A DNA stretch of 64,000 nucleotides from Sphingomonas sp. Leaf357 (GTDB lineage Bacteria > Pseudomonadota > Alphaproteobacteria > Sphingomonadales > Sphingomonadaceae), in the NCBI RefSeq assembly GCF_001423845.1, contig NZ_LMPM01000001.1, positions 1,879,398 through 1,943,397 of the forward strand, given 5' to 3'. Numbering within the stretch: the stretch's first letter is position 1; every line of letters begins with the position of its first letter. A program made the translations under genes and the position numbers. Positions 2,350-43,701 of the stretch are shown piece after piece. A model generated the notes under the pieces. That model was not told where the DNA came from and did not search any database. It saw only the letters and a list, made by a program, of their open reading frames with translations.

Positions 2350-2509
2350 GACGATCCCCAGTTTGACGGCGCGACCCGGTCGAAATCGCGCAACGCGGGA
2401 TATCCTACAAGGAAGATAGGGTTTGGCGCCAGAAACTTACGATGGGGCGGTGCTTTAATTTGATGCCCGGAACGATTAGATAGCGCGTCAGAAAACTAGG
2501 GGACTGACG

Positions 2510-3190
2510 ATGATACAGCGGCTGGTCGCTTATCTCGATTCGATCAAGCTGCGCGATCCGGCGCCGCGTTCGCGCTGGGAAATCCTCACTTATCCTGGGG
2601 TGTGGGCGCTCGGCTATCATCGCATCGCCCATCGCCTGTTCAAGGCGCGATTGTTCTTCCTCGCCCGGCTGGTCAACCACTGGTCGCGCATGTTCACCGC
2701 GATCGACATCCATCCCGGCGCGACGATCGGGCGCGATTTCTTCATCGACCACGGTTTCGTGGTGATCGGAGAGACGGCCGAGATCGGCGATAACGTCACG
2801 ATCTATCAATGCGTTACGCTGGGAGGCACCAGCCCGGACAATGGCGTGGCGGGCAAGCGCCACCCGACCTTGGCGGACGGCGTGATCATCGGGTCCGGCG
2901 CTCAGGTGCTGGGTCCGATCCTGGTCGGCAAGGGCGCGCGGGTCGGGGCCAATGCGGTCGTGACCAAGCCGGTGCCGGAGGGCGCGGTGATGGTCGGCAT
3001 CCCAGCGCGCGCGACGATGGTCGAGGGCGGGCAGAAACAGCCCGGCTTCCTGGCCTATGGTACGCCGTGCAGCGACGTGTTCGACCCGCAGACGCAAAAG
3101 GTCGAACTGCTGCGGTGCGAACTGGAGACGATGCGCAAGCGGCTCGATGCCCTGCTCGCCGAAAATGAGGATCTGCGCGACCGTGCCTGA
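2510..3190 (+). CDS. cysE: Serine O-acetyltransferase (short, EpsC-like form)
   Basis: This 226-residue enzyme acetylates L-serine with acetyl-CoA, the committed step of cysteine synthesis. The left-handed beta-helix of hexapeptide repeats spans about residues 62-170. Asp66 (in AIDIHPG) and His81 (in FIDHG) have the same 15-residue spacing as the catalytic Asp143/His158 of E. coli CysE, followed by GETAEIG and VTLGGT. The N-terminal helical domain is short, as in EpsC-type SATs, and the C-terminus (about 190-226) is a Leu-rich coiled coil. Start chosen at ATG 2510 after AGGGGA. The DUF2794 gene follows 18 nt later. Confidence 0.92.
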   Translation: MIQRLVAYLDSIKLRDPAPRSRWEILTYPGVWALGYHRIAHRLFKARLFFLARLVNHWSRMFTAIDIHPGATIGRDFFIDHGFVVIGETAEIGDNVTIYQCVTLGGTSPDNGVAGKRHPTLADGVIIGSGAQVLGPILVGKGARVGANAVVTKPVPEGAVMVGIPARATMVEGGQKQPGFLAYGTPCSDVFDPQTQKVELLRCELETMRKRLDALLAENEDLRDRA

Positions 3191-3208
3191 TCGGCGGGCC
3201 GAGGCCTG

Positions 3209-3556
3209 ATGGGTGTCGTCACGCCATTCCCGGTGCCGCCGCGCGGCGGGGAGACCCAGATCGGGTTCGAACGCGCCGAACTCACCAGGATCCTCGATCT
3301 CTACGGCCGGATGGTCGCGGCGGGTCATTGGAAAGATTATGCGATGGATCTCGGGCGCGAGGCCGCGATCTTCTCTGCCTTCCGCCGCGCGGCCGAGCGG
3401 CCCGAATTCCGAATCGAGAAGCGCCCGGCGTTGCGCAACCGGCAGGGCATGTGGGCGCTGATCGGCGAAGGCGGCGCGGTGCTGAAGCGGGGGCACGATC
3501 TGGCCCCGGTGCTGGCGCCGGTCGAACGGCGGCTGATGAAGCTGGTGGCTGAGTGA
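3209..3556 (+). CDS. DUF2794 family protein
   Basis: A 115-residue soluble protein that matches my recollection of the DUF2794 family, a small alphaproteobacterial family of unknown function. Recognisable features are FERAELTRILDLYGRMVAAGHWKDYAMD and the C-terminal VLKRGHDLAPVLAPVERRL, with no signal peptide or membrane segment. It starts 18 nt after cysE and is probably co-transcribed with it. No function is assigned. Confidence 0.8.
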   Translation: MGVVTPFPVPPRGGETQIGFERAELTRILDLYGRMVAAGHWKDYAMDLGREAAIFSAFRRAAERPEFRIEKRPALRNRQGMWALIGEGGAVLKRGHDLAPVLAPVERRLMKLVAE

Positions 3557-3585
3557 GCTTCACCCGCCGCTGACCGTCTCAACAT

Positions 3586-3668
3586 CGTCACCCCAGCGCA
3601 GGCTGGGGTATCCATGGGGCGGACGGTGCGCCCGCCCCACCGAGATCCCAACCTGCGCTGGGATGACG
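3586..3668. repeat. Intergenic palindromic repeat, family A
   Basis: An imperfect inverted repeat: left arm 3586-3622 (CGTCACCCCAGCGCAGG...) and right arm about 3631-3668, ending CCTGCGCTGGGATGACG. It lies between the convergent ends of the DUF2794 gene and the membrane protein gene. It looks like a REP-type dispersed element and could form a bidirectional 3'-end hairpin; no T-tract is present. Confidence 0.75.
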
Positions 3669-3674
3669 CGCTTG

Positions 3675-4745
3675 TTACGCGCTTACCGGCACCATCTGCC
3701 CCACCGGTGGCAGGCGATCCGCCACGCTGCCCAACGTGCCGACCACCAGCTTGCGCATCGGGTGCCAGAAGGCGGAGAGGGTCAGCAATGCGGAACCGAT
3801 GATCAGCGCGGTGAACGCCCAGGCCAATTCGACCGCACCGGCCGTCTCGAACAGCGAAGACAGAGCGTAGAGCACGTAGACGAGGCTGGAGACGAGCAAG
3901 GCGCGCCGGTCCACCGCCAGGGCGACGAAGCCGAACACGAGGTAGAGCGCGATCACGATCATCGCCATGCCGATGCCGATCGCCCCGTCGAACACGCCGA
4001 GGATGTTGAACAAGGCATGCGCGATCATCGGGGCGGCGGCGAGGTGCAGCCAGAAGGCGACGTCGGAGCGGCGCGTGCGGCGTTCGCGGTCGCTCATGTC
4101 CCAGCGCATCGCGAAGGTGAACATCGCGATGCCCGCGGCCAGCACCAGCCAATAAAGCGCGTCCTTGGCGGCGGGGATGAATCCGACGACCAAGGCCATC
4201 ACCACGGCGACCACCGCGACCGCGCCGGCGGCGACGGTGATCGGCACCATGAAGCGGCGCCAGTGCAGCACGGCCGCGCCGGCGGTGATCGCGGCGATGA
4301 CCGCGCCGATCACGCCGACGACCGGTTCGGGATGATTGGCGGCGTGATCGCGGACGAACGCCTGCAGCGCATCGCCATTGGCGACCACCAGGCCGAACAA
4401 CGCGCCCGCAACGCCGCCGATGAAGCCGATCAGCAGCAGGATCGAGGGCAGGGCCATGCGGCGCTGACGCGTGAAATATTCGGCCAGCCCCCAGGTTGCC
4501 GCCGCCACCGCGACGCCACCGAGCGCTTCGTGCACCGATCGCCCGAGCCAGCCGACCCCAAGCAACACGGCGAAGGCGGCGATCGATACGAAGATGTCGT
4601 TGAAGCCGGTCAGCAACCGGAAGCTTTCCTCATCGACCGCAGGGGCGGAGCGCCCGGCGGCGATATGGTTGCGCAGTGCCGCCGCCGTCTGGGCGCTGAT
4701 CGCCCCGGCCGTGACCGCCCCGTCGATATCGCTTTCGCTATACAT
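3675..4745 (-). CDS. Polytopic membrane protein, DUF2157/DUF4401-like
   Basis: A 356-residue inner-membrane protein with a short polar N-terminus (MYSESDIDGAVTAGAISAQ) and roughly ten to eleven hydrophobic segments starting near residue 47. The N-terminal helix followed by many TM helices resembles DUF2157/DUF4401 proteins, whose function is unknown; this match is by look only. The ATG at 4745 has a strong AGGAGG six to seven bases upstream. Upstream are an SD-pairing hairpin (4752-4777) and a perfect palindrome (4781-4810), which suggest dedicated regulation. The transport substrate, if any, is unknown. Confidence 0.7.
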   Translation of the reverse strand: MYSESDIDGAVTAGAISAQTAAALRNHIAAGRSAPAVDEESFRLLTGFNDIFVSIAAFAVLLGVGWLGRSVHEALGGVAVAAATWGLAEYFTRQRRMALPSILLLIGFIGGVAGALFGLVVANGDALQAFVRDHAANHPEPVVGVIGAVIAAITAGAAVLHWRRFMVPITVAAGAVAVVAVVMALVVGFIPAAKDALYWLVLAAGIAMFTFAMRWDMSDRERRTRRSDVAFWLHLAAAPMIAHALFNILGVFDGAIGIGMAMIVIALYLVFGFVALAVDRRALLVSSLVYVLYALSSLFETAGAVELAWAFTALIIGSALLTLSAFWHPMRKLVVGTLGSVADRLPPVGQMVPVSA

Positions 4746-14219: not shown

Positions 14220-15413
14220 TTACCCCTTCACTCCATGCGCTGGCAGCACGATCGATACGGTCGTGCCAGTGCCGACGACGCTGGCGATATCCAGTCGGCC
14301 GCGATGCCGCTCTACGATATGCTTGACGATCGCGAGGCCGAGGCCGGTGCCGCCGCCGGCGCGGCTGCGGCCGGGATCGACGCGGTAGAAGCGTTCCGTC
14401 AGGCGGGGGATGTGTTCGCTGGGGATGCCGTCGCCCTGGTCGGCGACGCTCAGGCGCACCATGCCGGCATCCTGCCACAGCCGCACGGTGACGGGCGCAT
14501 CGGCGCGGCCATATTTGATCGCGTTGCCGACGAGGTTGTGGAGCATCTGGCTGAGCTGCACGCGGTCGCCGGTGACCGCCGACACGCCGTCGCCCAAATC
14601 CAGCACGATCCGGCCCTTGACGATCTCCGCGCGGACCTCGCCAACCAAGTCGGCGAGATCGACGGCGCGGTCGGGCAGGCGGTATTTCTCCGCTTCGATC
14701 CGGCTGAGCGAGATGAGATCCTCGACGAGCCGCTGCATCCGCCGCGCCTCGTCGTCCATGATCTTCAGGAAGCGCCCGCGCAGCGCCGCGTCCTCTCCGG
14801 CCTCGTCGCTCAGCGTTTCGATATAGCCGAGGATCGAGGCGAGCGGCGTGCGCAGTTCGTGACTGGCATTGGCGACGAAATCGACGCGCATGCGCTCGGC
14901 GGCGTAATTGCCGGTCTGGTCGATAAGGTGGACGATGCGCTGGCCTCCGGCCCCCAACGCGACGCGCATCTGCCAGCGCTGGTCGAGCGTGCCGAGCCCG
15001 ACCAGATCGATCGGCTCCGCCGTGCCCGGCGCGATCGGCCCGACCAGCCGTTCGGCAGCCGCAGGGTGGCGGATCGCGAGGCGCACGTTCTGGCCGAGGA
15101 TATGTCCGCCGAGCAAAGCGCGGGCCGGGGCGTTGGCCTGCGTCACGCGGCCCTCGGTCACGATCAGGATCGGCTCGACGATCGCCTCCAGCACATCGCC
15201 GAGATCCAGCGGCGGCGCGTCCGTGGAAGCCGGGGGCTGGTCCGGATCGACCGCGATCTCGCTCGTGCCCGCGGCCGTCAGCACCGCCGCGACGCCGCCG
15301 ATCAGCGTGACCAGAGTCGCCTGTACATCATGCCCGAGCAGGAAAACGGCGATCGCGGCCACGGCGACGAGGCCGATCGCGGTGAGCGTGCGTATGCCGA
15401 ACCCCTGAACCAT
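14220..15413 (-). CDS. phoR: Phosphate regulon sensor kinase PhoR
   Basis: A 397-residue membrane histidine kinase. Two hydrophobic segments at about 8-27 and 32-50, a PAS-like domain at about 70-165, then DHp with phospho-acceptor His185 in FVANASHELRTPL, N-box NLVGNAIKYG, G1 DQGDGIP and G2 GGTGLGLAIVKHI. The start is ATG 15413, the only one placed before the TM hairpin; the longer frame reads through the divergent gene. It is first of the Pho genes but has 199 nt before pstS and may have its own promoter. Confidence 0.92.
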   Translation of the reverse strand: MVQGFGIRTLTAIGLVAVAAIAVFLLGHDVQATLVTLIGGVAAVLTAAGTSEIAVDPDQPPASTDAPPLDLGDVLEAIVEPILIVTEGRVTQANAPARALLGGHILGQNVRLAIRHPAAAERLVGPIAPGTAEPIDLVGLGTLDQRWQMRVALGAGGQRIVHLIDQTGNYAAERMRVDFVANASHELRTPLASILGYIETLSDEAGEDAALRGRFLKIMDDEARRMQRLVEDLISLSRIEAEKYRLPDRAVDLADLVGEVRAEIVKGRIVLDLGDGVSAVTGDRVQLSQMLHNLVGNAIKYGRADAPVTVRLWQDAGMVRLSVADQGDGIPSEHIPRLTERFYRVDPGRSRAGGGTGLGLAIVKHIVERHRGRLDIASVVGTGTTVSIVLPAHGVKG

Positions 15414-15494: not shown

Positions 15495-15908
15495 ATGAGC
15501 GACGATGTTCCTCCCCTGCCGGCCGAAGAGATGCCCGCGCCCGGCGCGCTCGGGCGTCGCGCGCTGATGCTCGGCGCGGTGGGGGCGTCGGCGATCATCT
15601 CGATCCGCCCGGCGCTCGCGCAGACCAATGCGTCGGTGATGGCGTGCGAGATCCCGGTGCCGGATGCCGGCCGTGCAGGATCGGCGATCGCCGCCGATGG
15701 ATCGGTCGTGCCGCGCGGAACGCCGGGATCGTTCGCCGCCAATGGCCGCGTGTTCAAGGCCGCCGACGTCAAGCGCGCGATGTCCGGTGGGCAATTGCCG
15801 GGCACCGATTACGAAACTAACCGCGCGTATATGAGCTACATCCGCAAGCTGCAGTCGGGCACCAGCGGCTTCACCTGCTTCGCCTCGCTGCAGATGCCGC
15901 GCGGCTGA
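15495..15908 (+). CDS. Tat-type secreted protein of the HPr-rel-A locus (possible substrate)
   Basis: A 137-residue protein with a twin-arginine-like signal (GRRALMLGAVGASAII, Arg21-Arg22, likely cleaved after Ala42 in PALA-Q). The mature part has two Cys (51 and 128), a Gly/Pro-rich middle (PRGTPGSFAANGRVF) and TDYETNRAYMSYIRKLQSGTSGF near the end. I recognise no domain. It starts at ATG 15495 and its stop is 4 nt before the PqqD-like gene, which continues into kinase and nucleotidyltransferase genes with overlaps. By position it is the likeliest substrate or partner of that system, but this is inference. Confidence 0.72.
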   Translation: MSDDVPPLPAEEMPAPGALGRRALMLGAVGASAIISIRPALAQTNASVMACEIPVPDAGRAGSAIAADGSVVPRGTPGSFAANGRVFKAADVKRAMSGGQLPGTDYETNRAYMSYIRKLQSGTSGFTCFASLQMPRG

Positions 15909-15912
15909 GGCT

Positions 15913-16188
15913 TTGGCCGATCCGCTGTTCCGCAGCGTCCGCGTGGAGACGCTGCGCATCGATTGGCTCGACGATTTCACGCTGATCTATCACCGTGCAT
16001 CGGGCATCACTCACCTGTTGAACGCGCCCGCGCCGGAGATCCTGGCGACATTGGGCGAAGCGGGCATGACGCTGGCGGAACTGACCGACACTCTGGCGGC
16101 ACAGTTCGATCTGCCCGATCTGGATGCGGGCGCGCTGGCCGCGCGGCTCGACGAACTGGTGTCGGCCGGTCTGGTCGTCGCCGCATGA
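15913..16188 (+). CDS. HPr-rel-A system PqqD-family peptide chaperone
   Basis: A 91-residue PqqD-like winged-helix protein (RiPP recognition element fold). Visible features are LRIDWLDDFTLIYHRASGITHLLNAPAPEILATLG and ALAARLDELVSAGLVV, the pattern of PqqD-type chaperones which present peptide substrates to modifying enzymes. It uses a TTG start at 15913, 4 nt after the preceding stop, and its TGA overlaps the kinase ATG. Family databases name this type HPr-rel-A system PqqD; the substrate is unknown. Confidence 0.85.
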   Translation: MADPLFRSVRVETLRIDWLDDFTLIYHRASGITHLLNAPAPEILATLGEAGMTLAELTDTLAAQFDLPDLDAGALAARLDELVSAGLVVAA

Positions 16189-17057
16189 AGCACGTCTTCT
16201 CGGTCAAGATCGGGCCGGTCGGGTTTCGCGTCGGCGCCGACTGGCGCGCGCCGATCGCGCAACTGGCCGATCTTTATGCGGGCTATCCCCGGCCCGACGA
16301 CGGCGTGCCCGATTTCACCGTGCGCTTGTTCGCCGCGCGGCCGTGGCGGCGCTTCGTGCGCCCGGCGGTGATGATCGGCGGTGATTTCGTGCTGCCCGAG
16401 GCCGCGCCGCTGCCGCTTGCGCAGGGGCTGCTCGCGGCGGAGATGGGGATGAACCTGCAGATGGCGCTCGGGCAGCGGCGCTATCTGCTGCTGCACGCCT
16501 CGGCGGTCGAGCGGGATGGGCGGGCGCTGTTGATGACCGGCGTGTCGGGCGCGGGCAAGTCCACGCTCGCGGCGCTCCTCTCGCTGCGCGGCTGGCGGCT
16601 GATGGGCGACGAATTCGCCTTGCTCGATCCGGCGACCGGGCTGATCCACGCCTTTCCGCGCCTCGTGAGTCTGAAGAACACGGCGATCGGCGTGGTCGAA
16701 CGCGCCGCGCCGGAGCGCCGGTTCGGGCCGTTGCTCGCAGGCACGCCGAAGGGCGACATCCGCCATCTCGTGCCCGATGCGGCTGCGGTCGCGGCGATGC
16801 AGGTGCCCGCGCGACCGACCTTGATCCTGTTCCCCAGCTTCGGGTTCGATCCGGCGCAGCGCGAGATATCGCACAGCGAGGCGTTCGTCCGGCTGACCCA
16901 GGCATCGACCAACTATGTCTCGCTCGGCGAGCGCGGCTTTGCGGCGCTGACCGGACTGGTGAAGAATACGCCCGCGCTGGCGATCGATTATCCCGATACC
17001 GACAGCGCGATCGCGCAGGTCGAAGCCGTCTGGGAAGCCCTGGGGGAAAAGCTGTGA
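16185..17057 (+). CDS. HprK-related kinase A
   Basis: A 290-residue P-loop kinase related to HPr(Ser) kinase. Walker A TGVSGAGKST is at 118-127, preceded by LLLHASAVERDGRALL (His104) and followed by GWRLMGDEFALLD with an acidic Walker-B-like GDE. HprK-type enzymes phosphorylate Ser on a protein; related kinases in lasso peptide clusters phosphorylate the peptide precursor. There is no HPr/PTS gene nearby. ATG 16185 overlaps the PqqD stop by 4 nt and its own stop overlaps the nucleotidyltransferase start. Target unknown. Confidence 0.88.
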   Translation: MKHVFSVKIGPVGFRVGADWRAPIAQLADLYAGYPRPDDGVPDFTVRLFAARPWRRFVRPAVMIGGDFVLPEAAPLPLAQGLLAAEMGMNLQMALGQRRYLLLHASAVERDGRALLMTGVSGAGKSTLAALLSLRGWRLMGDEFALLDPATGLIHAFPRLVSLKNTAIGVVERAAPERRFGPLLAGTPKGDIRHLVPDAAAVAAMQVPARPTLILFPSFGFDPAQREISHSEAFVRLTQASTNYVSLGERGFAALTGLVKNTPALAIDYPDTDSAIAQVEAVWEALGEKL

Positions 17058-18055
17058 ACGACGGCTGGCTCCTGGCGCGCGCGCTGCGTCTGCCCGGCCA
17101 GACGCTGGCGTTGGACGCGGCGGGTTGGACCGACCTGCTCGCCATCGCGCGGGCCGAACAGATGATCGGCACGCTCGCGCATCGGCTGAACGGGCTGAAG
17201 CTGCCGAGCGCGGTGCAGCGCATTCTGGAGGATGCCCGCGCCTCCGCCGACCAGGGCCGATCCGTCGCCTTGTGGGAGGCGGAGGTCGCGCGGCGCGTGC
17301 TGACGCCGATCGGTGTGCCGGTCGTGCTGCTGAAGGGCACCGCCTTCGTCGCCGCCGGGCTGAGGGCGGGGCAGGGGCGGTCGATCGGCGATCTCGATAT
17401 CCTCGTGCCGCGCGATGATATCGATCGGGTCGAGGCGGCGTTGCTCGCGAGCGGTTGGGAATGGGTGAAGCCCGATCCGTACGACGACGCATATTATCGC
17501 CGCTGGATGCACGAGCTTCCCCCTTTGATCCATCGCGACCGCGACCGGATGATCGACGTCCACCACACCATCCTGCCGCTGACCGCGCGGATCACGCCCG
17601 ATGCGGCGGCGCTGCTGGCGGACAGCGTGGAGATCGCGCCGGGCCTGCGCACCCTGTCCGCCAACGACATGCTGGTCCACGCCGCGGCGCACCTGTTCGC
17701 CGATGGCGATCTGGCCGGCGGCATGCGGAACCTGTGGGACGTGCATTGCCTGGTCGAGGAATACGGTACGGAAGGGCTGGCCGCGCGGGCCGCGCATCAC
17801 GGGCTGGCGAAGGAAACGGCGCACGCGCTGCGTCTCGCGGCGGCGCTGTACGGCGAGGTCGCCAGGATCGGGCTCGTCGATTGGCTATACCTGCGCCGCA
17901 TCACCGCCCGCGATGGCTGGGGCTGGCCGACCCGCCCGGTTGCGCGCCAGGCCTTCTATGTCCGTTCGCACTGGTTGCGCATGCCGCCGACGATGCTCGC
18001 GCGGCATCTGTGGACGAAGTGGCGCAAGGGCGGCGCCGGCCCGTCGGCGGGATGA
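17054..18055 (+). CDS. Nucleotidyltransferase family protein (PF14907-like) of the HPr-rel-A locus
   Basis: A 333-residue protein. The nucleotidyltransferase core has VVLLKGTAFVAAGL (Lys94-Gly95) and SIGDLDILVPRDD with the paired Asp113/Asp115 expected to bind metal, followed by a helical C-terminal half (HAAAHLFADGDLAGGMRNLWDVHCLVEEYG). Uses GTG 17054, overlapping the kinase stop by 4 nt. It would transfer a nucleotide or phosphate to the system's target. The same family recurs in the EPS locus (51602-52771). The target is unknown. Confidence 0.82.
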   Translation: MNDGWLLARALRLPGQTLALDAAGWTDLLAIARAEQMIGTLAHRLNGLKLPSAVQRILEDARASADQGRSVALWEAEVARRVLTPIGVPVVLLKGTAFVAAGLRAGQGRSIGDLDILVPRDDIDRVEAALLASGWEWVKPDPYDDAYYRRWMHELPPLIHRDRDRMIDVHHTILPLTARITPDAAALLADSVEIAPGLRTLSANDMLVHAAAHLFADGDLAGGMRNLWDVHCLVEEYGTEGLAARAAHHGLAKETAHALRLAAALYGEVARIGLVDWLYLRRITARDGWGWPTRPVARQAFYVRSHWLRMPPTMLARHLWTKWRKGGAGPSAG

Positions 18056-18167
18056 ATGCAAGATGACCGATAGCTTTCAATAAGCTGTCAGGAGAATTCA
18101 GCCGCTCGACATCCGTATAGTTTTAATACCCGTCCTATCTGGTTGAATGGAAGAGGACGGACTGATC

Positions 18168-18374
18168 ATGGCTAACCGACGCTGGACCGACGAAGACGTC
18201 GAGGATTTGCGCCACCGTGTCGCAGCCGGGCAAAGTGTTCGCGATATCGCGATCGATATCATGCGATCGCAGGAAGCGACGCGCGCGCGCATGCAGACTC
18301 TAGGCCTCACCAAGCCGCGCGCCTTCAAGGGCGAACGCATTTTATGCGGGGCGTCCGAAGATGCGGAACAATAA
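18168..18374 (+). CDS. Small HTH-like protein
   Basis: A 68-residue protein, MANRRWTDEDVEDLRHRVAAGQSVRDIAIDIMRSQEATRARMQTLGL..., whose predicted helices and WTDEDVEDLRHRVAAGQS pattern look like a Myb/SANT- or GcrA-type DNA-binding helix-turn-helix. ATG 18168 follows AGAGGA; an upstream ATG at 18147 is weaker. It may be a small regulator, but no target is evident. The 112 nt before it, after the nucleotidyltransferase stop, contains only a likely promoter. Confidence 0.65.
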   Translation: MANRRWTDEDVEDLRHRVAAGQSVRDIAIDIMRSQEATRARMQTLGLTKPRAFKGERILCGASEDAEQ

Positions 18375-20951: not shown

Positions 20952-21296
20952 ATGCGCACGCTGATCGACCTTCCCGAAGACGATATGAAGTGGCTTGACC
21001 GCAAGGCGGCCGAGCAGGGCAGGTCGCGCGCTGCTCTCGTCCGTGAGGCAGTGTCCAACTATCGCGCCGGGTCGAAGCCGGTAGAAGACATGAGTTGGCT
21101 GGACGACGCTTTCGGGATCTGGAAGCATCGAACGGATATCGGAGATGCGGTCGAGTGGCAGCGACGGGAACGCGCAAGTTGGACGCGGCCTTGGGACCAC
21201 GACTACGAAGATGTGAAAGCAGAATTTCCTGATCTGTTCGACGAAGAGGACGATCGGCAGCGCGCAATCTATCTCGCGAAGCAAAAAAAGCCGTGA
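20952..21296 (+). CDS. Ribbon-helix-helix antitoxin
   Basis: A 114-residue protein. The N-terminal ribbon-helix-helix (MRTLIDLPEDDMKWLDRKAAEQGRSRAALVREAV, residues 1-34) resembles CopG-type antitoxins. The C-terminal 75 residues are acidic/aromatic (WKHRTDIGDAVEWQRRERASW, then DEEDD) and longer than a minimal RHH antitoxin; they probably wrap the toxin. The gene overlaps the PIN toxin start by 4 nt and lies immediately after the palindromic operator. The C-terminal extension could alternatively be a separate function. Confidence 0.8.
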   Translation: MRTLIDLPEDDMKWLDRKAAEQGRSRAALVREAVSNYRAGSKPVEDMSWLDDAFGIWKHRTDIGDAVEWQRRERASWTRPWDHDYEDVKAEFPDLFDEEDDRQRAIYLAKQKKP

Positions 21297-21661
21297 GCGC
21301 GATTTCTTTCGACAGCAATATTTTGATCGACGCGCTCAACGGCGAGGTGCGCGCGCACACCGAAATTGCCCGCGCGACCCAGCGCTGGATCAGCCGGGCG
21401 ACCTGGATCGAGGTGCTATCGAGGATCGAGGGCGACACGATGCCGGTGGTCTTGCGCTTTCTGGCAGGTTTCGAAATCGATGAACTCGACATCGAAATCG
21501 CCGATCGTGCCGCGGCCCTGCGCCGTGAGCGGCGTCGACTGAAGCTGCCGGATGCCGTGATTCTCGCGTCGGCCCAAGCGAACGGCCGTATCCTCGTTAC
21601 CCGCAATACCAAGGATTTTCCGGTCAACATGCCCGGCATCCGTATTCCCTACACCCTCTAG
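21293..21661 (+). CDS. VapC-like PIN-domain toxin
   Basis: A 122-residue PIN ribonuclease. Acidic metal-binding residues are in FDSNILID (Asp7), IEVLSRIEGD (Glu), LPDAVILASA (Asp) and NTKDFP (Asp). GTG start 21293 overlaps the antitoxin stop by 4 nt, giving a type II toxin-antitoxin operon. VapC-like toxins cleave tRNA or rRNA; the target here is unknown. It lies 16 nt before glmS, so the pair is embedded between two aminosugar genes. Confidence 0.85.
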   Translation: MSAISFDSNILIDALNGEVRAHTEIARATQRWISRATWIEVLSRIEGDTMPVVLRFLAGFEIDELDIEIADRAAALRRERRRLKLPDAVILASAQANGRILVTRNTKDFPVNMPGIRIPYTL

Positions 21662-33909: not shown

Positions 33910-35361
33910 TCAGGCACGAGTGCGCCATCCGATTCGCGAGAGCAGGCCGTTTCGCAAGTCAACCGGCGTGCCGTACAGGCCCAGAATAGTCGAGATCGCC
34001 AGACACCCAACCAAGGCAACCGTCCAGCGCAGGGAGAAAGCAGTCGTAGATCGGGAAAGTGCCAGCGCGAATCCGAGGACCAGGCTGCAAATCGCTAGCA
34101 TTACGCCGCTCCGTCGCAGCGTCCCTAATTCGAATTCAAGCAATACATAATTCATGGCGACCCTGAACACATAAGCGGCGGCAACACCGACCAACCCAAA
34201 AAAGGTCAGTGCGCAATACAGGACGACCCAGTAGGGGACGACCTGAACCAGATCGACCTTGGCGACCAACTCGGGGCGAGACTGCGCGCGTAACGCATAT
34301 AAAGGAATACGAGACATAGAATCGAACCAAGCACCGACCATAAGAATTTGCCCGACGGCAGCCGAGAAGCTGGCGAAGTCCCGCCCGACCCAAAGCGTTA
34401 AGAATGGGCCGATCGCGAATATCCCCACGACGATGATCGGCAACATAATCACCATCAACAAGCGTTCGAAACGAACGCTCTGGTGCAGCAAGTCATCGCC
34501 TCTCAACGCCGAAAGTTTAGGGAAGATAGCCGAACCTAGAGAATTGGCGATGATCGTTGAGCGGTCGCTGAGGCTGTAGGGCACCGAAAAATAGCTGACC
34601 GCACCGGCGCTGATGCCGGCACCGATCGCAAAACGGTCGATGCCGCTCATCAACGGTGAAAATAACGACGATAAGGTCACCCATCCACCGAACTTGAGCA
34701 TGCTCACCATGCGTTGTCGGGAATAGCTGGCTCGATGGCCGGACAGGACCACGCGTCGAACTTCGAACCAAAGCAGCAATAGCGTCAACACGCGCGCCAA
34801 CAAAGCAACGGGAAGAACGACCGTGAGCTTCGGCGATACCAGCAGCGCCGCCAGCAGCGGCAGAATTTGAAACAGCAATGTGCCGCCGGCGGAAAACATG
34901 TTCAGCTTTCCGAACCGGTTCAATCCCTGAAGCGCGCCGCCCAGAACTCCGGTAATCGTGACGAGTGGCACACCGAGGGCGAGCCAAGGCACGGCCGTCG
35001 TCATCTCCAGACGCATCGCCGGATCGGTTTTCATCACATGGGTGAAATAATAAGTCGCGATAGGCCACAGGATCAGGCCGCCCAACATGCCGATCGCGGA
35101 ATTCGTGATCAGCGCACTCCAGACGAGTTGGGCCCGCTCTTCATCGGCGTCGTTGCTGGTGGCCGCGAGATGATGGGACGTCGCCATTCCCAGTCCGAGA
35201 TCGAACAAGCCGAAATAACCGAGAAAAAGCCAGACGATCGCCAGGATCCCGAATCTAACCTCGCCGATCGCGTGCAGATATGCGGGGACTGTTGCCAGCG
35301 ATACAGCGACCGGAAGGGCTGCACCTAGCAGATTATAGGCGGTATCTCGCTTGGTGCTCAT
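33910..35361 (-). CDS. Wzx-type oligosaccharide flippase
   Basis: A 483-residue polytopic protein with about twelve to fourteen TM segments, starting MSTKRDTAYNLLGAALPVAVSLATVPAYLHAIGEVRFG, the usual start of MATE-like Wzx/RfbX flippases (NxxGA and PxYLHAIGxxRFG). It moves the undecaprenyl-linked repeat across the inner membrane, between the glycosyltransferases and the polymerase. It is divergent from the FkbM gene across 147 nt (35362-35508). Confidence 0.87.
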   Translation of the reverse strand: MSTKRDTAYNLLGAALPVAVSLATVPAYLHAIGEVRFGILAIVWLFLGYFGLFDLGLGMATSHHLAATSNDADEERAQLVWSALITNSAIGMLGGLILWPIATYYFTHVMKTDPAMRLEMTTAVPWLALGVPLVTITGVLGGALQGLNRFGKLNMFSAGGTLLFQILPLLAALLVSPKLTVVLPVALLARVLTLLLLWFEVRRVVLSGHRASYSRQRMVSMLKFGGWVTLSSLFSPLMSGIDRFAIGAGISAGAVSYFSVPYSLSDRSTIIANSLGSAIFPKLSALRGDDLLHQSVRFERLLMVIMLPIIVVGIFAIGPFLTLWVGRDFASFSAAVGQILMVGAWFDSMSRIPLYALRAQSRPELVAKVDLVQVVPYWVVLYCALTFFGLVGVAAAYVFRVAMNYVLLEFELGTLRRSGVMLAICSLVLGFALALSRSTTAFSLRWTVALVGCLAISTILGLYGTPVDLRNGLLSRIGWRTRA

Positions 35362-35508
35362 CGCAGGTCATGCATCGTGGACGAGGTCGTTAGTCGAGAA
35401 GAATGAGCGCCACAAGGCTGTCCCCGCCGCATCCTGACTGCCGGGTAATTGCCTATCTGCAAAAGCATGCCTAGTGGGTTTTTGTTATTCGGATCAGAGG
35501 GTACGACA

Positions 35509-36294
35509 ATGCAGTGGCGCCAGCGCCTGATCCATCTTTCCCGACATCGCTCGCTGCAGCCTGTCTGGGAATTCACACATCGGTCGTCGTTGGTTTCGAT
35601 GAACTTCTGGGCGTCGCTGTTCCGGACGAGTGGGGAGCGTGAGGCCCTGGACGTTGTTTTCGGAAGATTGAACGGCCGGGCGCCAATCCTTTTCGATGTC
35701 GGTGCCAATATCGGTGACTACACCGCGATGCTGCTCGACCGGTTTGGATCTTCCGCGAAAATATTCGCTTTCGAGCCCAGCCTGGGCGCCTTTGGAGCAT
35801 TGAGCGAGAAGTTCGACGCTGTCCCATCGGTCACGTTGAGCCGACTGGCATTGAGCGACGCATCGGGGGATCGCACCCTTCACAGCGACGCGGACGGATC
35901 GACGATTGCCTCACTGGAGAATCTGGAAAGTCCGATACGACCTTTCGATCCCGATCATTTCCAGACCGTCGCGTGCATGCGTCTCGACGATTATTGCGCG
36001 GAGCATGCCATCGCACGGATCGATTTCCTGAAGGTTGATGTCGAGGGGCATGAATTGAGCGTACTCCGCGGAGCAACGCGTTTACTGGCCAGCCGAGCGA
36101 TCGACGTAATCCAGTTCGAATTTGGCGAGCCGAACATCGATTCACGCACATTCATGCGTGACTTCGTCAACTTGCTCCAGGGTTACGACTTCTTCCGGAT
36201 CGTTCCGGGAGGCCCGGTCCCATGGACATATGCCGGCGGGCGATCGGAAATTTTCGCGACCATCAATTACCTTGCTGTCCGCCGCGACGCCTGA
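35509..36294 (+). CDS. FkbM-family methyltransferase
   Basis: A 261-residue SAM-dependent methyltransferase. Motif I ILFDVGANIGDYTAML, motif II-like FAFEPSLGAFGAL, and the FkbM hallmark DFLKVDVEGHELSVLRGATRLL are clear. Start ATG 35509 after AGAGGG. Members methylate sugar hydroxyls in EPS clusters; the position methylated is not known. Next gene (36372) is a second methyltransferase. Confidence 0.88.
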   Translation: MQWRQRLIHLSRHRSLQPVWEFTHRSSLVSMNFWASLFRTSGEREALDVVFGRLNGRAPILFDVGANIGDYTAMLLDRFGSSAKIFAFEPSLGAFGALSEKFDAVPSVTLSRLALSDASGDRTLHSDADGSTIASLENLESPIRPFDPDHFQTVACMRLDDYCAEHAIARIDFLKVDVEGHELSVLRGATRLLASRAIDVIQFEFGEPNIDSRTFMRDFVNLLQGYDFFRIVPGGPVPWTYAGGRSEIFATINYLAVRRDA

Positions 36295-36371
36295 TTTCTT
36301 GTTTCAAAGGCGCCAGACTTTGAATGCGACGATATCTTTGAGCCACGCGCAACTGAAAGAAATTCAAGCTG

Positions 36372-37337
36372 ATGAACGATGATTTGATGCGGCTGTGTGA
36401 CCCCGAAACCGGCGATGCGCTGCTCGAGCAGGACGGTAAGCTGGTGGCGAGATCGGGCGGCGAGTATCCGATCGTGGACGGCATACCCCGTTTTGTCCCA
36501 TCGGAATTCTATGCCGCGAACTTTGGCAAACAGTGGCGTATGTTCCCGAAGACGCAGCTAGATTCTTTTACCGGAATACCTATTTCCGGCGATCGTCTGA
36601 AGCGCTGTCTGGGAGGCAGCTTCGATCTCGTGCGCGGCAAGTCCGTGTTAGAGGCGGGTTCGGGAGCAGGCCGGTTTACGGAGGTGTTTCTGGCGGAGGG
36701 GGCGGTACTAGACTCGTTCGACATCTCCTCAGCCGTCGAGGCGAATGCGAAGAATAACGCCGCCAACACCTTCAATCTCGTGCAAGCCGATATCAGGTCG
36801 ATCCCGTTCAAAAACGAGGCTTACGACCTGGTCGTATGTCTTGGCGTGCTTCAACATACGCCAGACACCGAACAAAGCATTGCTAGCCTCTGGACGAAGG
36901 TGAAACCGGGCGGCACGCTGGTGATCGATCATTATGATTGGAACCGTTGGCGCCTGCCGCCACCGATCGGTGGCGCGGAAATTTTCCATCGCCCGAGAAT
37001 CTTGAGGATGGCTGCAGAAAAGCGATGGCCTGCGGTCAAGAAAAGCGTCGATTTCTGGTTTCCAGTCTACTGGCGGTATCGCGATAACGCGATCATGCGC
37101 CGCGTTCTTTCCAGGATTGGCGGGATTAATTTCTATTATCCGGATTTGCCTTTGGGAAGTCGCGAAGCGCATTATCAATGGTCGTTGCTGGACACGCACG
37201 ACGCCCGTACAGATTTTTACCATCGCTATCGCACCGTGGGCTCGATTAAATCCACCCTCGATAGTTTGGGTGCTGTCGACATCGCCGTCTGGAAAGGCGG
37301 CAATGGGGTCGAGGCTCGATGCGCCAAGCCACTTTGA
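36372..37337 (+). CDS. Class I SAM methyltransferase with Trm112-like N-terminus
   Basis: A 321-residue protein. The N-terminal 50 residues (CDPETGDALLEQDGKLVARSGGEYPIVDGIPRFVP) look like a Trm112/UPF0434-type small domain with only one of the expected Cys; the Rossmann methyltransferase follows (VLEAGSGAGRFTEVFLAEGA, DLVVCLGVLQHTPD). C-terminal WRYRDNAIMRRVLSRIGGINFYYP is typical of EPS-locus homologues. Likely methylates an EPS sugar. Followed 25 nt later by AsnB1. Confidence 0.8.
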   Translation: MNDDLMRLCDPETGDALLEQDGKLVARSGGEYPIVDGIPRFVPSEFYAANFGKQWRMFPKTQLDSFTGIPISGDRLKRCLGGSFDLVRGKSVLEAGSGAGRFTEVFLAEGAVLDSFDISSAVEANAKNNAANTFNLVQADIRSIPFKNEAYDLVVCLGVLQHTPDTEQSIASLWTKVKPGGTLVIDHYDWNRWRLPPPIGGAEIFHRPRILRMAAEKRWPAVKKSVDFWFPVYWRYRDNAIMRRVLSRIGGINFYYPDLPLGSREAHYQWSLLDTHDARTDFYHRYRTVGSIKSTLDSLGAVDIAVWKGGNGVEARCAKPL

Positions 37338-37362
37338 GAAACGAAAGCGCAGGCGTCTCCTC

Positions 37363-39336
37363 ATGTGTGGCATAACTGGACTTATCGGCCCGGGCGCTGC
37401 TGCCCCGGAAATTATAGCGGCGATGACCAAACGCATCGGGCATCGCGGACCTGACGACCAAGGTACTTGGCGCGATGCCGAGACACCGATCGCGTTGGGA
37501 CATCGTCGACTTGCAATCGTCGATCTGTCGCCGACGGGCCATGAGCCTATGATCAGCGCGTCGGGTCGCCTCGTCGTAGTATTCAACGGTGAAATTTATA
37601 ACCACGTTGCCCTGCGCAAGCGGCTGGATGCCGAGGGGCGCGCGCCGGAAGGCGGGTGGCGCGGTCACTCGGATATCGAAACGTTTCTCGAGGCGATCGA
37701 ACATTGGGGGCTCGATAGCGCGCTGGACTCGGCAGTCGGGATGTTTGCCCTTGCGATCTGGGATCGCCAGCTGCGCCGCGCATCTCTCGTTCGAGATCGG
37801 TTCGGCGAGAAACCGTTATATTACGGCTGGGTCGGTGGAGATTTCGCATTCGGTTCGGAATTGAAAGCTCTGGCGGCGCATCCACGGTTCGACAACGGCA
37901 TCGATCGCGCAGCGCTGACGTTGCTGACCGAGCGTGCCTATATTCCCGCACCGTTTTCGATTTATCACGGGATATATAAACTTCTGCCAGGCACTATTCT
38001 TGAGATCGAAGGTACCGCCCCGCCATCCGAACTCAAGAAAGCTCCCGTTGTCGGGCGGCGCTACGACGGTTTGTCGATCCGTCAATTTTATTCCTATCGG
38101 AACGTCGTTCGGAGCGGGACAGAAAATCGCTTCGTCACCGAAGGTGACGCCACGGATGCGCTTAATGCTGCCTTGCGCGCCGCCATCGTCGATCAATCGG
38201 TCGCTGACGTGCCCGTCGGAGTATTCTTATCGGGCGGGATCGACAGTTCGACGGTGACGGCGCTCTACCAGTCGATCAGCGACACGCCCATTCGGAGCTT
38301 TTCGATCGGGTTTTCCGAAGCTGGCTATAATGAGGCGGAAGACGCCAAGCGTATCGCAGCGCATCTGGGGACCGTGCATCACGAGCTCTACGTCAGCCCC
38401 GGCGACGCGCTGGAGGTGATTCCGCTTCTCCCGGAAATCTACGACGAGCCGTTTGCGGATTCGAGCCAGGTTCCGACCTATCTCGTCAGTCGCTTCGCAC
38501 GGCAGCATGTCAGCGTAGCACTGACCGGCGATGCAGGGGACGAGCTGTTCGGCGGCTATTATCGCCATTTCATGGTGGAAGCGATTTGGGAAAAGCTGAG
38601 ATCCGTCCCACGATTTGCACGCGCGATCGCGGCGCGCCCGGCGAGCGGCATGCCTGATGCCATCTTGTCTGCTGCAGCCCGGACGGCGGGGTTCGGCGGG
38701 ATTGCAAAAGATCCGGGTAAGATCCGCAAGTTTCTGGCCATCATCGGAACGTCTCGAGGGCTCGAAGACGTCCTTCAGAGCTTCCTCGACGAATGGACGC
38801 AGCAGCCTTCAATCGTGCTGGGCGGGGACCGGTCGGCGCTACACCCAGATCTCGATCTGGGGTCAAAGGCCAGCGCACTTGACCGCGTCACGTATCATGA
38901 TGCGGTCAGCTACATGAGCGACGATATCCTGTGCAAGGTCGATCGGGCGGCAATGGCCGTGAGCCTGGAGACCCGAGTTCCTATGCTCGATCACCGCGTT
39001 GCAGCAGTTGCCGCCCGGATTTCGCCCGGGATGAAAATTCAGAAGCGCAAGGGCAAGATACCTTTGCGGACCCTGCTCGACCGGCACGTACCTGTGCGTC
39101 TTACCGATCGGCCGAAGGCCGGCTTCGCTGCTCCGGTCGACCATTGGCTCCGTGGGCCGCTTCGCGACTGGGCAGAGGCGTTGCTCGATGCCAAGGAAAT
39201 GCGCGAGGATGGCTGGTTCGATACCGATCGTGTGCAGACCGAATGGCGACAATTTCTTGCGGGCAACGCTGTCCCGGCCAGCCGATTGTGGCCGATATTG
39301 ATGTTTCAGGCTTGGAAGCAACACAATAATCGATAG
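37363..39336 (+). CDS. AsnB-type glutamine-dependent amidotransferase, copy 1
   Basis: A 657-residue class II amidotransferase. Cys2 (MCGITGLIG) is the glutaminase nucleophile, HRGPDDQG and FNGEIYNH complete the glutamine site, and FLSGGIDSSTVTALY is the ATP-pyrophosphatase loop; DDILCKVDRAAMAVSLETRVPMLD is conserved. ATG 37363 starts with Cys2; the ORF continues upstream but cannot begin earlier. In EPS clusters these enzymes amidate sugar carboxylates or act on asparagine. Paralogue of 40610-42592. Confidence 0.87.
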   Translation: MCGITGLIGPGAAAPEIIAAMTKRIGHRGPDDQGTWRDAETPIALGHRRLAIVDLSPTGHEPMISASGRLVVVFNGEIYNHVALRKRLDAEGRAPEGGWRGHSDIETFLEAIEHWGLDSALDSAVGMFALAIWDRQLRRASLVRDRFGEKPLYYGWVGGDFAFGSELKALAAHPRFDNGIDRAALTLLTERAYIPAPFSIYHGIYKLLPGTILEIEGTAPPSELKKAPVVGRRYDGLSIRQFYSYRNVVRSGTENRFVTEGDATDALNAALRAAIVDQSVADVPVGVFLSGGIDSSTVTALYQSISDTPIRSFSIGFSEAGYNEAEDAKRIAAHLGTVHHELYVSPGDALEVIPLLPEIYDEPFADSSQVPTYLVSRFARQHVSVALTGDAGDELFGGYYRHFMVEAIWEKLRSVPRFARAIAARPASGMPDAILSAAARTAGFGGIAKDPGKIRKFLAIIGTSRGLEDVLQSFLDEWTQQPSIVLGGDRSALHPDLDLGSKASALDRVTYHDAVSYMSDDILCKVDRAAMAVSLETRVPMLDHRVAAVAARISPGMKIQKRKGKIPLRTLLDRHVPVRLTDRPKAGFAAPVDHWLRGPLRDWAEALLDAKEMREDGWFDTDRVQTEWRQFLAGNAVPASRLWPILMFQAWKQHNNR

Positions 39337-39365
39337 CAGAAGTGTCGGAAACTATCGGCAAAAGA

Positions 39366-40400
39366 TCATCGCCGGCTTTTCCGATCGAGAAATCTTTCAC
39401 TGCCCCACACGGTGACCAGGGCGATCCGCGCCAGCTCCTTCGCGAGCCGACGGGAAGACCAGTACGTGCAGGCGAGAAGCGCTGCCCTGCTGGCGGCATA
39501 AAATATCTGTCCGGAGTAAAGCGCTGCCATGTATCTGAAATCTTGCGCCATCAGTGCCTGGCGGCGCAATTGTTTGCGATGATCGGGAAAGCCCTGCAAT
39601 AATCTTTGAGTTCCGAGAACGTTTACATACCCGCGGGTGATAGTCCTGAGAGCCTGTTGCTTGGTTTGCGATTGACCGCTCGTGTTCCCGGTGAATATTC
39701 GGTACTGGAAGAGAGGCTGGTTCACGAAACCGACTTGCGAGCCGGTATTGGTTACGATGACGAACTGAGCGATCAGGTGATCTTGATAGCTCAGTCGCCG
39801 GAACATCGGCACGGAGACGCTATCGATGAAGCGTTCCAGTTCCACCAGATCGATCGCTGCGCGCCGGATGCTGAACGCACTGCCCAACCATACGCCCCGG
39901 TAGGAGAGTATCGACTGTTTCAGTGCCTCTGACAGTCCCTCCTGGTCCGCATGCCGTCGAACGATGCGCCTGGTATTGCGTTGCGTATCGTCGAGTGTCC
40001 GGGTCCGCAGGCCTTCCGCATCGATGATCGCGTAATCATGCGAGAGCAGGACGACATCGGCTCGATCCCGCCAGATCGGAGCGATAACCGCAAGCTTTTC
40101 TGGGCTCCACAGATCATCGCCATCTAGGAATGCGACTATGTTGCCGGTGCTGGCCCGAATCCCGGTTAGTGTCGCGTTCAAGACGCCGCCATTTCGATCG
40201 AGTTTGACCAGCCTGACGCCGTTCCCGAAGGCGGCTATCACGTCCACCGACCGATCGGTGCTCGCATCATCGATCACGATGATTTCGTGAGGGCTTCTGC
40301 GCTGATCCAAAACGGACTGAATGGCCGGGCCAATATATCGTTCGAGGTTATAACACGTGATGACGACGCTAATTCTCGGCTCGTCTTCAGAACTTGTCAT
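39366..40400 (-). CDS. GT2 glycosyltransferase
   Basis: A 344-residue GT-A transferase. ISVVITCYNLERYIGPAIQSVLDQ, VIDDASTDRS (acidic cluster) and FLDGDDLWSPEKL are diagnostic. Start ATG 40400 (MTSSEDEPRIS) follows AAGGGTGG; frame extends to 40427. Placed between and opposite in strand to the two asnB genes. Adds a sugar in EPS synthesis; specificity unknown. Confidence 0.87.
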   Translation of the reverse strand: MTSSEDEPRISVVITCYNLERYIGPAIQSVLDQRRSPHEIIVIDDASTDRSVDVIAAFGNGVRLVKLDRNGGVLNATLTGIRASTGNIVAFLDGDDLWSPEKLAVIAPIWRDRADVVLLSHDYAIIDAEGLRTRTLDDTQRNTRRIVRRHADQEGLSEALKQSILSYRGVWLGSAFSIRRAAIDLVELERFIDSVSVPMFRRLSYQDHLIAQFVIVTNTGSQVGFVNQPLFQYRIFTGNTSGQSQTKQQALRTITRGYVNVLGTQRLLQGFPDHRKQLRRQALMAQDFRYMAALYSGQIFYAASRAALLACTYWSSRRLAKELARIALVTVWGSERFLDRKSRR

Positions 40401-40609
40401 AGCCACCCTTTTGTCGAGCTTCATCAACGACCGTGACCGGCGTTCGCGCGACGTTTTCGCGCTGAATGGCGCGTGTGGTCGGCAGTTAAAACGTGAGCCG
40501 TCAGGTGTCCAGCTACCGTCCGGTAGCAGGTTCTTCGAACCGAAGGTTGCCGACCACCGTCACGGTCGGTAAGCGCGTCGACTCTAGGTGTTTCGGGAGT
40601 AGCAGGACG
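40401..40609. other. Structured intergenic region between GT2 and asnB copy 2
   Basis: This 209-nt divergent gap carries a perfect 10-bp inverted repeat, CGACCGTGAC (40428-40437) with GTCACGGTCG (40559-40568), plus small hairpins CTACCG-TC-CGGTAG (40513-40526) and GGTTC-TTC-GAACC (40529-40541). It probably holds both promoters. No ORF is convincing. Confidence 0.5.
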
Positions 40610-42592
40610 ATGTGCGGCATCGCAGGCGCGATTGGCGTCAAGCCGATCGATCCGCCGGTGGCGGTAGCGATGCGGGATACGCTGGCGCATCGTGGCCCGG
40701 ATGATGCGGGGGCCTGGTTCTCCGACGATCGTCGTATCGCTTTGCTGCATCGGCGCTTGTCGATCGTGGATCTCTCGCCGCTCGGCCATCAGCCGATGGC
40801 GTCGGCCGGGGGGCGCTACGAACTCGTCTATAATGGCGAGATCTACGATCACCTCGCGATCCGTGCCGAGTTGGAGGCGTCGGGCACCGCGCCGGTGTGG
40901 CGCGGCCACTCGGATACCGAGACGTTGCTCGCCGCGATCGATGCGTGGGGCGTGCGCCGAGCGATCGAGCGCGCCACGGGCATGTTCGCGATCGCGCTGT
41001 GGGACCGGCACAGCGGTACGTTGACGCTCGCGCGCGACCGGTTCGGCGAGAAGCCTTTATATTATGGCTGGGCAGGGGGTATTTTCGCTTTCGCGTCCGA
41101 ACTGGGCGCGATCCGCGCTGTGCCCGGTTTCGCCAATCCTGTCGATCGCGCGGCCTTGTCGTCCTTGCTGTCGCGGACCTACATTCCGTGCCCACAATCT
41201 ATCTATCAGGGCATCTTCAAACTGCCGCCCGCCATGGTGCTTACGCTAACCCCGGACGCGGTGGCACAGCCGCGCCGCGTTCCGTTCGCCGAAGGGATGC
41301 AAGATGGCGCGACCCTGGAGCGTTACTGGTCGTATCGCGATGTCGTGCGTGACGGGCTCGACACGCCCTTCGCCAGCGAGGCCGAAGCGGTCGAGGCGGT
41401 TGAGGCGGCAATGTCTACGGCCGTGGCCGGGCAGGCGATCGCCGATGTTCCGGTCGGCGCGTTTCTGTCGGGCGGTTTCGATTCCTCCACTGTCGTCGCA
41501 TTGTACCAGGCGGCCTCGCGCGGCACGATCCGCACCTTCTCGATCGGGTTCGAGGAAGCCGGTTTCGACGAAGCGGTTTATGCCCGAGAGGTTGCGCGGC
41601 ATTTCGCCACCGAACACCACGAGATGTATGTCGGTTCGGCGGATGCGATCGCGGTCATTCCTCGCCTGCCTAGCATGTATGGCGAACCGTTCGCGGATTC
41701 CTCCGCCTTGCCGACACACCTCGTCAGCGCTTTCGCGCGCCAGCATGTGACAGTCGCACTATCGGGCGATGGCGGCGACGAATTGTTCGGCGGCTATAAC
41801 CGCTATCTCCACGCGCCGCGGCTGTGGCGGTCGCTCGCGCCGTTGCCGCGCGCGCTACGCCGGATCGCGGCGGGGGCGGGGGCGCGGCTTCCCGATGCGG
41901 CGTGGAATACGCTGGGGTCGATCGCCGCGCGCAAGCGGCGTCCGCCTTTCTTCGGCGGCAAGGTGCGCAAGGCGTTGCGCACGGCGGCGGATGCGCGCGG
42001 GCTGGACGACGTCTTCGCCTCATTGCTCGACGAGTGGCATTTGCGCGCGACGCCGGTGCTCGACGCGGACGGTTGGCGCCGGACGCCGCTTGATATGGAT
42101 ATCGGGGTCGCACCCGATGCGGTGCGCATGATGTATGCCGATGCGACGACCTATATGACCGACGATATTCTCGCCAAAGTCGATCGCGCGGCGATGTCGG
42201 TCAGTCTCGAGACGCGCGTGCCGTTCCTCGATCACCACGTCGCGACCGTCGCGGCACGTGTGCCAATCGATCACAAGATCGTCGGCGGAAGCACCAAGCA
42301 CGTATTGCGCCAAGTCCTGTATCGTCATGCTCCGAAAGCGATGTTCGAACGGCCCAAAGCGGGCTTCGCGATGCCTGTCGGCCAATGGCTGCGCGGCCCG
42401 TTGCGCGACTGGGCGGAGGACCTGCTCGATCCCGTGCGCATGCTGCAGGAAGGGTATCTAGATCCGGCCCCGATCCAGTTGCGCTGGCAGCGGCATCTTG
42501 CCGGCATGGCGGAAGATACCCCGGCTTTATGGGCGGTATTGATGTTTCAAGCCTGGCTGCGTCAGGGCGGTGCGGCACCGAGCTATGCCTAA
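40610..42592 (+). CDS. AsnB-type glutamine-dependent amidotransferase, copy 2
   Basis: A 660-residue class II amidotransferase with Cys2 (MCGIAGAIG), HRGPDDAGAWF, YNGEIYDH, AFLSGGFDSSTVVALY (Phe where copy 1 has Ile) and DDILAKVDRAAMSVSLETRVPFLDHHV. It has the same domain order as the 37363 copy and looks like a duplicate that diverged. Starts at ATG 40610 after GCAGGAC. Overlaps the next glycosyltransferase by eight bases. Confidence 0.88.
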   Translation: MCGIAGAIGVKPIDPPVAVAMRDTLAHRGPDDAGAWFSDDRRIALLHRRLSIVDLSPLGHQPMASAGGRYELVYNGEIYDHLAIRAELEASGTAPVWRGHSDTETLLAAIDAWGVRRAIERATGMFAIALWDRHSGTLTLARDRFGEKPLYYGWAGGIFAFASELGAIRAVPGFANPVDRAALSSLLSRTYIPCPQSIYQGIFKLPPAMVLTLTPDAVAQPRRVPFAEGMQDGATLERYWSYRDVVRDGLDTPFASEAEAVEAVEAAMSTAVAGQAIADVPVGAFLSGGFDSSTVVALYQAASRGTIRTFSIGFEEAGFDEAVYAREVARHFATEHHEMYVGSADAIAVIPRLPSMYGEPFADSSALPTHLVSAFARQHVTVALSGDGGDELFGGYNRYLHAPRLWRSLAPLPRALRRIAAGAGARLPDAAWNTLGSIAARKRRPPFFGGKVRKALRTAADARGLDDVFASLLDEWHLRATPVLDADGWRRTPLDMDIGVAPDAVRMMYADATTYMTDDILAKVDRAAMSVSLETRVPFLDHHVATVAARVPIDHKIVGGSTKHVLRQVLYRHAPKAMFERPKAGFAMPVGQWLRGPLRDWAEDLLDPVRMLQEGYLDPAPIQLRWQRHLAGMAEDTPALWAVLMFQAWLRQGGAAPSYA

Positions 42593-43700: not shown

Positions 43701-43701
43701 T

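Follow-up and report, generated by a model that had tools for sequence, protein, structure and literature searches.

A Tat-type secreted protein as candidate substrate of the HPr-rel-A kinase and nucleotidyltransferase encoded beside it in Sphingomonas sp. Leaf357

What do the enzymes of the HPr-rel-A system act on? The question is raised by a four-gene operon in a stretch of 64,000 nucleotides (nt) from Sphingomonas sp. Leaf357 (contig NZ_LMPM01000001.1, positions 1,879,398 to 1,943,397), which is referred to here as the window. On the plus strand, the operon encodes a 137-amino-acid (aa) protein, here called X, with a leader of the twin-arginine translocation (Tat) type and a lineage-variable middle (15495..15908); a 91-aa PqqD-like protein with a TTG start, of the type known as the recognition element of ribosomally synthesized and post-translationally modified peptides (RiPPs) (15913..16188); a 290-aa HprK-related kinase A (16185..17057); and a 333-aa nucleotidyltransferase with the pair D113-x-D115 (17054..18055). 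The explanation that we favour, with somewhat better than even confidence in it as a whole, is that the operon pairs a secreted protein with its own modifying enzymes. The firmer part, considered likely, is that the kinase and nucleotidyltransferase set has X as its substrate, since X co-occurs with the kinase, shares one architecture across lineages, and has a tail type that follows the kinase tree.

Gene calling, which was trained locus by locus at the fetched loci, confirmed the four genes and the spacing that a preliminary description of this DNA had given them, with a 4-nt gap after X followed by two 4-nt overlaps. The ATG starts of X and the kinase are those of the gene caller, while the raw list of open reading frames (ORFs) begins them at TTG 15459 and TTG 15963, respectively; the protein used for the homologue search (P0001) is identical over its 137 aa to the ATG-started X. 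The family names proposed earlier were also borne out, as the PqqD-like protein matches TIGR04353 with 66.6 bits (cut-off 35), the kinase matches TIGR04352 with 243.1 bits (cut-off 200), and the nucleotidyltransferase matches PF14907 with 169.4 bits (cut-off 31.2). The adjacent kinase and PqqD-like genes thus carry both NCBIfam names of the HPr-rel-A system, and the PF14907 nucleotidyltransferase beside the kinase, which we take to be a defining part of that system, is present as well; X itself has zero matches among Pfam and NCBIfam models. Against solved structures, the best matches of the kinase are HPr kinases, with a weak sequence match (E 0.016). A literature search, which covered few subscription papers, found no paper on HPr-rel-A, HprK-related kinase or TIGR04352/TIGR04353/PF14907, none on PqqD combined with exosortase or with an HPr kinase in Sphingomonas, and nothing related on a RiPP recognition element combined with twin-arginine export.

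As the preliminary description had read it, X has a Tat-type leader and two cysteines. X shows the sequence features of a Tat substrate, namely a twin arginine at residues 21–22 (15555..15560), a hydrophobic stretch and an A-L-A signal-peptidase-type site; the cysteines are Cys51 (15645..15647), the first after the leader, and Cys128, which belongs to the C-terminal motif T127-C128-F-A-S131-L (15873..15890) with Ser131 as the proposed modification site. A tatC gene, encoding TatC, is present in the genome; the NCBIfam Tat-signal model TIGR01409 did not match the X of the window and gave 14.8 of the 16.7 bits needed in one relative. Of 2409 candidates in the homologue search, 2324 had E ≤ 1, the named near homologues including Sphingomonas and Stakelama species, and among selected close homologues little or no variation is seen at 76 of 137 positions (profile A1, 34 rows) and 77 of 137 (profile A5, 60 rows), which include the last 12 residues in both profiles; X is therefore no chance ORF.

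Does X accompany the kinase? The survey set consisted of 118 Sphingomonadales genomes, which a TIGR04352 search divided into 67 kinase-bearing (the genome of the window included) and 51 kinase-less ones, the former made up of 65 above the cut-off and two slightly below it (197.7 and 187.8 bits). The close-homologue profile A1 matches 24 of the 118 genomes, all of them kinase-bearing: all 21 kinase-bearing genomes of the window's own family, no kinase-less genome of that family, and three other kinase-bearing ones. Strict homology to X was rejected as a co-occurrence test because it was too narrow, A1 having no match in 43 of the 67 kinase-bearing genomes, and it was replaced by place, architecture and lineage profiles. 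Judged in this way, a counterpart of X is present in all 67 kinase-bearing genomes, directly upstream in 61 and elsewhere in 6; at 60 of the 66 other kinase loci, the region upstream of the PqqD-like gene encodes a protein that combines a Tat-type leader with [STGA]CxxS at the C-terminal end. In five loci (L035, L082, L084, L089 and L093), X is unlinked and stands elsewhere in the genome beside phoR, which the gene caller missed in L099; the genomes that keep X in this way are G031, G072, G086 and G097 of genus g5 and G045. In a further genome (G037, L091), the kinase lies at a contig end and X on another contig, which is probably an assembly break and was not counted as unlinked.

The lineage profiles A3 (40/118) and A4 (57/118) match kinase-bearing genomes exclusively, and A1, A3 and A4 combined match 66 of the 67 kinase-bearing genomes, the remaining one (G006) having X by place (L098), and none of the 51 kinase-less ones. 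The informative part of the co-occurrence is formed by these zeros in kinase-less genomes together with the unlinked cases. The expectation that the 137-aa protein always occurs with the kinase and PqqD genes thus fails for close homologues, and genomes with the three enzyme genes that A1 misses are many; however, diverged or analogous proteins that share the leader type and the motif were found in those genomes, so the substrate idea survives in a broader form. Similarly, of the earlier proposal of a peptide or protein modification system around a secreted X, what stands is that X accompanies the enzymes at almost all sampled sites, even when the genes are separated, whereas the 137-aa homologue itself is not universal.

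Outside Sphingomonadales, TIGR04352 is over its cut-off in 51 of 397 Pseudomonadota genomes, none of the 51 being labelled as of the same class outside the order, and one Rhodobacterales-titled kinase record (L214) appeared in a scan of named genomes. At 37 kinase loci in 36 non-Sphingomonadales genomes, an X with a Tat leader lies upstream in 34 and, unlinked, on another contig in 3 (G139, G185 and G193, which took no part in profile building); profile A2 matches 27 of the 397 genomes, all 27 kinase-bearing. The named-genome scan gave 504 kinase relatives, of which 80 were kept (Betaproteobacteria 27, Gammaproteobacteria 23, Magnetococcia 22, eight others or unassigned), some on the same contigs as other sampled loci; X was found by pattern, not each case being checked further, in 71 of these 80 loci, and in four the upstream sequence of less than 725 nt was too little to judge. 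In some lineages, two X genes occur in one locus or a second copy is unlinked; for instance, the second copies in family f5 (L184, L185, L186, L187, L188 and L104) each lie beside a gene of 427–439 aa, which, in the sequences seen in L184 and L104, reads like a possible sigma factor of the extracytoplasmic function type.

The shared architecture of X consists of a leader and a tail around a changing middle. On a home-made score, 92 of 94 linked X reach the level of a Tat-like leader, compared with 48 of the 919 remaining genes at these loci, and the twin arginine itself is present in all 94; the [STGA]CxxS motif is found near the end of 79 of the 94, compared with 17 of the 919. The rule by which X was picked demanded [RK]R and rewarded the motif, and the X counts are biased toward both; the 919-gene control was not so picked, and contains a few second X copies, also among its 17 motif carriers. 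L093 and L150 were judged to be false X and left out of the linked counts. By lineage, the motif is present in 60 of 60 linked X in Sphingomonadales and in 19 of 34 outside. One or both arginines of the pair, the first post-leader Cys and C-x-x-S are invariant columns in each of A1 to A4, the first Cys also in A5. In the 80 X with this type of tail, the window included, the residue before the motif Cys is Ser in 58, Thr in 21 and Ala in 1, a hydrophobic or aromatic residue follows the Cys, I, L, F, V, Y or A follows the Ser, and the stretch between the Ser and the C-terminus has a median length of 7 residues; the consensus shared by the counterparts is [ST]-C-hydrophobic-x-S-hydrophobic. The mature parts give no significant alignment across lineages (best probability 19%), and the best weak matches, in several lineage pairs, sit by position on the C-terminal motif. 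The middle may be Asp-rich, Asn/Gly-rich or Ser-rich, or nearly absent. Many A3-type X have more than 150 residues past the leader. The X of a Magnetococcales locus (L202, frame 3378–3710), with a PqqD-like gene directly after it, is reduced to about 18 residues after the putative cleavage site, but still has the motif and two Cys.

In addition, the tails fall into types. When 164 X (the window, 94 linked and 69 named, some from the same contig) were typed by pattern, 113 were of type I, with the motif described above, 36 of type II and 15 of type III. Type II lacks CxxS and often has S-P-G-[YF]-W and A-x-Y-L-N-A; type III, which is partly defined by its Ser, is mostly I-L-S-S-x-S-A-x-S-hydrophobic, with Ala or Ser where type I has the Cys. 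On the kinase tree, tail type changes 3 times over 155 rows, while the mean of shuffled labels is 46 and none of 200 shuffles was as low. What the tree result adds is that the tail is fixed within a clade and the middle is not.

The enzymes keep residues of catalytic type throughout. In all 104 aligned kinases, H104, K125, D142 and E143 are kept, as are K164, K189, N243, E86 and N90; in all 97 nucleotidyltransferases, K94-G95, R109, D113-x-D115, Y143, Y148, D168 and H209 are kept. The nearest described systems are lasso peptide clusters. It has been reported that in these the linear precursor receives a phosphate on its C-terminal Ser from an HprK homologue, which needs its H-K-D-D residues, and that the addition of one or two hexoses to the Ser phosphate depends on PsmN, a protein with a nucleotidyltransferase annotation, nucleotidylation followed by the action of a host enzyme not being excluded (PMC9266682 and PMC8498205). 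The window operon resembles the paeninodin (PadeK/ThcoK) and pseudomycoidin (PsmK/PsmN) systems in its HprK-type kinase, nucleotidyltransferase and PqqD-type helper, and in a Ser that is conserved at the C-terminus or close to it, PsmN being likened to the PF14907 enzyme by its annotation. Unlike lasso clusters, the operon has no lasso cyclase and no leader peptidase, and unlike lasso precursors, X has a Tat-type leader, and the product may be the whole protein. The earlier statement that the operon lacks a lasso cyclase holds also genome-wide, since none exceeds the cut-off of NF033535 and the best match, outside the window, has 267 of 525 bits. A lasso cluster elsewhere in the genome was considered and rejected, as only sub-cut-off asparagine-synthase-like matches were found, two of which, within the window, belong to an exopolysaccharide cluster. 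Other systems with HprK-like kinases, the SynChlorMet cassette (ScmC) and the HprK-related kinase B systems, match the window kinase weakly (25.1 and 27.1 bits), well short of the 125 and 200 bits required. The genome has a second HprK-like gene (L105, G000:C1:1217000-1222500, about 2363–3289), which scores 47.5 bits to TIGR04352, below the cut-off, and adjoins a sulfotransferase gene.

By analogy with the lasso kinases, the following course can be proposed. The PqqD-like protein would bind X in the cytoplasm, probably at the leader, and present it to the HprK-like kinase, which would phosphorylate the Ser near the C-terminus (S131 in T-C-F-A-S-L). The PF14907 enzyme would then add a nucleotidyl or sugar group to the Ser phosphate, and the modified X would exit through Tat with removal of its leader and act in the periplasm or outside the cell, perhaps together with exopolysaccharide. 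The parts of this course deserve different trust: for the Ser as the site of modification we see the chances as evenly balanced, and a sugar or a nucleotide as the final group on X is a tentative suggestion.

Several observations weigh against this reading. The second acidic residue of the kinases is Glu rather than Asp in all 104, giving H-K-D-E as opposed to the H-K-D-D of the lasso kinases (PMC9266682), and the Ser of lasso precursors is the last residue, as opposed to residue 131 of 137 in X. The CxxS motif is missing from 15 of the 94 linked X, all outside Sphingomonadales, and the Ser of this motif is thus not a universal site; the type II tails, too, speak against a single site. No X was found nearby in five of the 80 named loci (L199, L206, L219, L220 and L227). 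Most of the recall of profiles A2 to A4 is by construction because they were built from the X of the same genomes. The kinase tree is a quick tree with long branches, of which the tool warned, and shared descent of one operon alone could make tail type follow it. AlphaFold2 modelled X poorly (pLDDT, its confidence measure, 59.6), and no PDB match at E ≤ 0.001 was found.

The enzymes could also have another target. The kinase and nucleotidyltransferase might act in sequence on a small molecule, turning a sugar into a sugar phosphate and then a nucleoside diphosphate sugar for exopolysaccharide, with X as a periplasmic partner rather than a substrate. Such a role would suit the exopolysaccharide cluster of the window, which holds a second PF14907 gene, and the neighbourhood of XrtA: models of the XrtA/PEP-CTERM system are over cut-off in five of eight non-Sphingomonadales loci scanned at chosen neighbours (L138, L137, L140, L158 and L166; not L156, L165 and L173), and, among 13 kinase-bearing Sphingomonadales genomes searched, 8 have XrtA no more than 15 kilobases from the kinase. 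However, the gene set includes a PqqD-type peptide binder, X is kept even when unlinked, and its tail type follows the kinase clade. In the 36 kinase-bearing genomes outside the order, many of them fragmented assemblies, XrtA is over cut-off in 15, below it in 6 and without match in 15, and of 10 kinase-less Sphingomonadales genomes searched, 8 have it over cut-off; XrtA and the cassette are therefore not tied, and XrtA as a requirement for the cassette was rejected. We regard a small-molecule target as unlikely.

Two further explanations concern X itself, and both are considered improbable, by nearly the same measure. Its two conserved Cys might only form a stabilising disulfide and its Ser be structural, the enzymes modifying another protein; the first and the C-terminal Cys are indeed invariant in A1 to A4, but type III X (15/164) has Ala or Ser at the C-terminal Cys position while Ser-hydrophobic stays, the type being partly defined by that Ser. 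Alternatively, X might be a RiPP-like precursor whose C-terminal core, once modified, is excised to give a small secreted peptide, a reading for which we see marginally the lower chance. The conservation of leader and tail around a variable middle, the short remainder after the leader in L202, and an HtrA/trypsin-like protease gene at 9 of 14 type II loci would fit this, but such a protease gene occurs at only 3 of 79 type I loci and not in the window operon, and the long A3-type X speak against it as well.

Modification of the exported X, which we continue to favour, may also be one case of a wider process, although we hold this to be doubtful. The PqqD adaptor, kinase and nucleotidyltransferase might read the common leader and the [ST]-C-hydrophobic-x-S-hydrophobic tail of Tat-exported proteins whatever the middle and place a phospho-sugar or nucleotide on the Ser, a general C-terminal tagging that would prepare the protein to be joined to exopolysaccharide or some other polymer of the surface, with tail types that differ by lineage.

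The genomic context, with the XrtA/PEP-CTERM genes and the exopolysaccharide cluster, points to the cell surface. The operon is flanked upstream by a divergent phoR-like sensor kinase gene (14220..15413, minus strand) and downstream by gph- and glmU-like genes; among the other 66 kinase loci of Sphingomonadales, 52 have a phoR-like gene on the opposite strand at most five genes upstream of the kinase, and gph and glmU lie at most five genes downstream in 53 and 43, respectively. No Pho box was found in the 81-nt gap between phoR and X of the window, the best site having 4 mismatches. Across 53 such gaps, near-matches outnumber those in doublet shuffles, with 4 at one mismatch (0.9 expected) and 20 at two mismatches (9.7 expected), and Pho control may operate in relatives of the window operon; the one-mismatch sites lie in four gaps, e.g., L060, L066, L081 and L097, the window not among them. 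A short element T[TC]AC[CG]ATTG... recurs some 40 nt upstream of X in L054, L055, L056, L062 and L067, has a looser form in the window, and is perhaps part of a promoter or operator. The exopolysaccharide cluster (34003–52771) includes two asparagine-synthase-like amidotransferases, a Wzc-like and a Wza-like protein and a nucleotide-sugar dehydrogenase, and its PF14907 nucleotidyltransferase (51602–52771, 139 bits) has no recognised kinase or PqqD-like gene beside it. A VapBC-like pair (RHH_1 followed by a PIN domain, 20952–21661) lies between glmU and glmS and has homologues near glmU in several relatives, and a 75-aa ORF 3′ of the operon (18147–18374) gives a sub-threshold GcrA match (21.9 of 26.9 bits).

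HPr-rel-A kinases have an NCBIfam name and 504 relatives in one genome-collection scan, yet the literature search, within its coverage of few subscription papers, found no paper on them. A candidate substrate family with a predicted site makes this orphan enzyme set directly testable, and the pairing of X with the enzymes recurs in many bacteria. If the tail is the site, phosphorylation and phosphoglycosylation of the lasso type would extend from small natural products to exported proteins.

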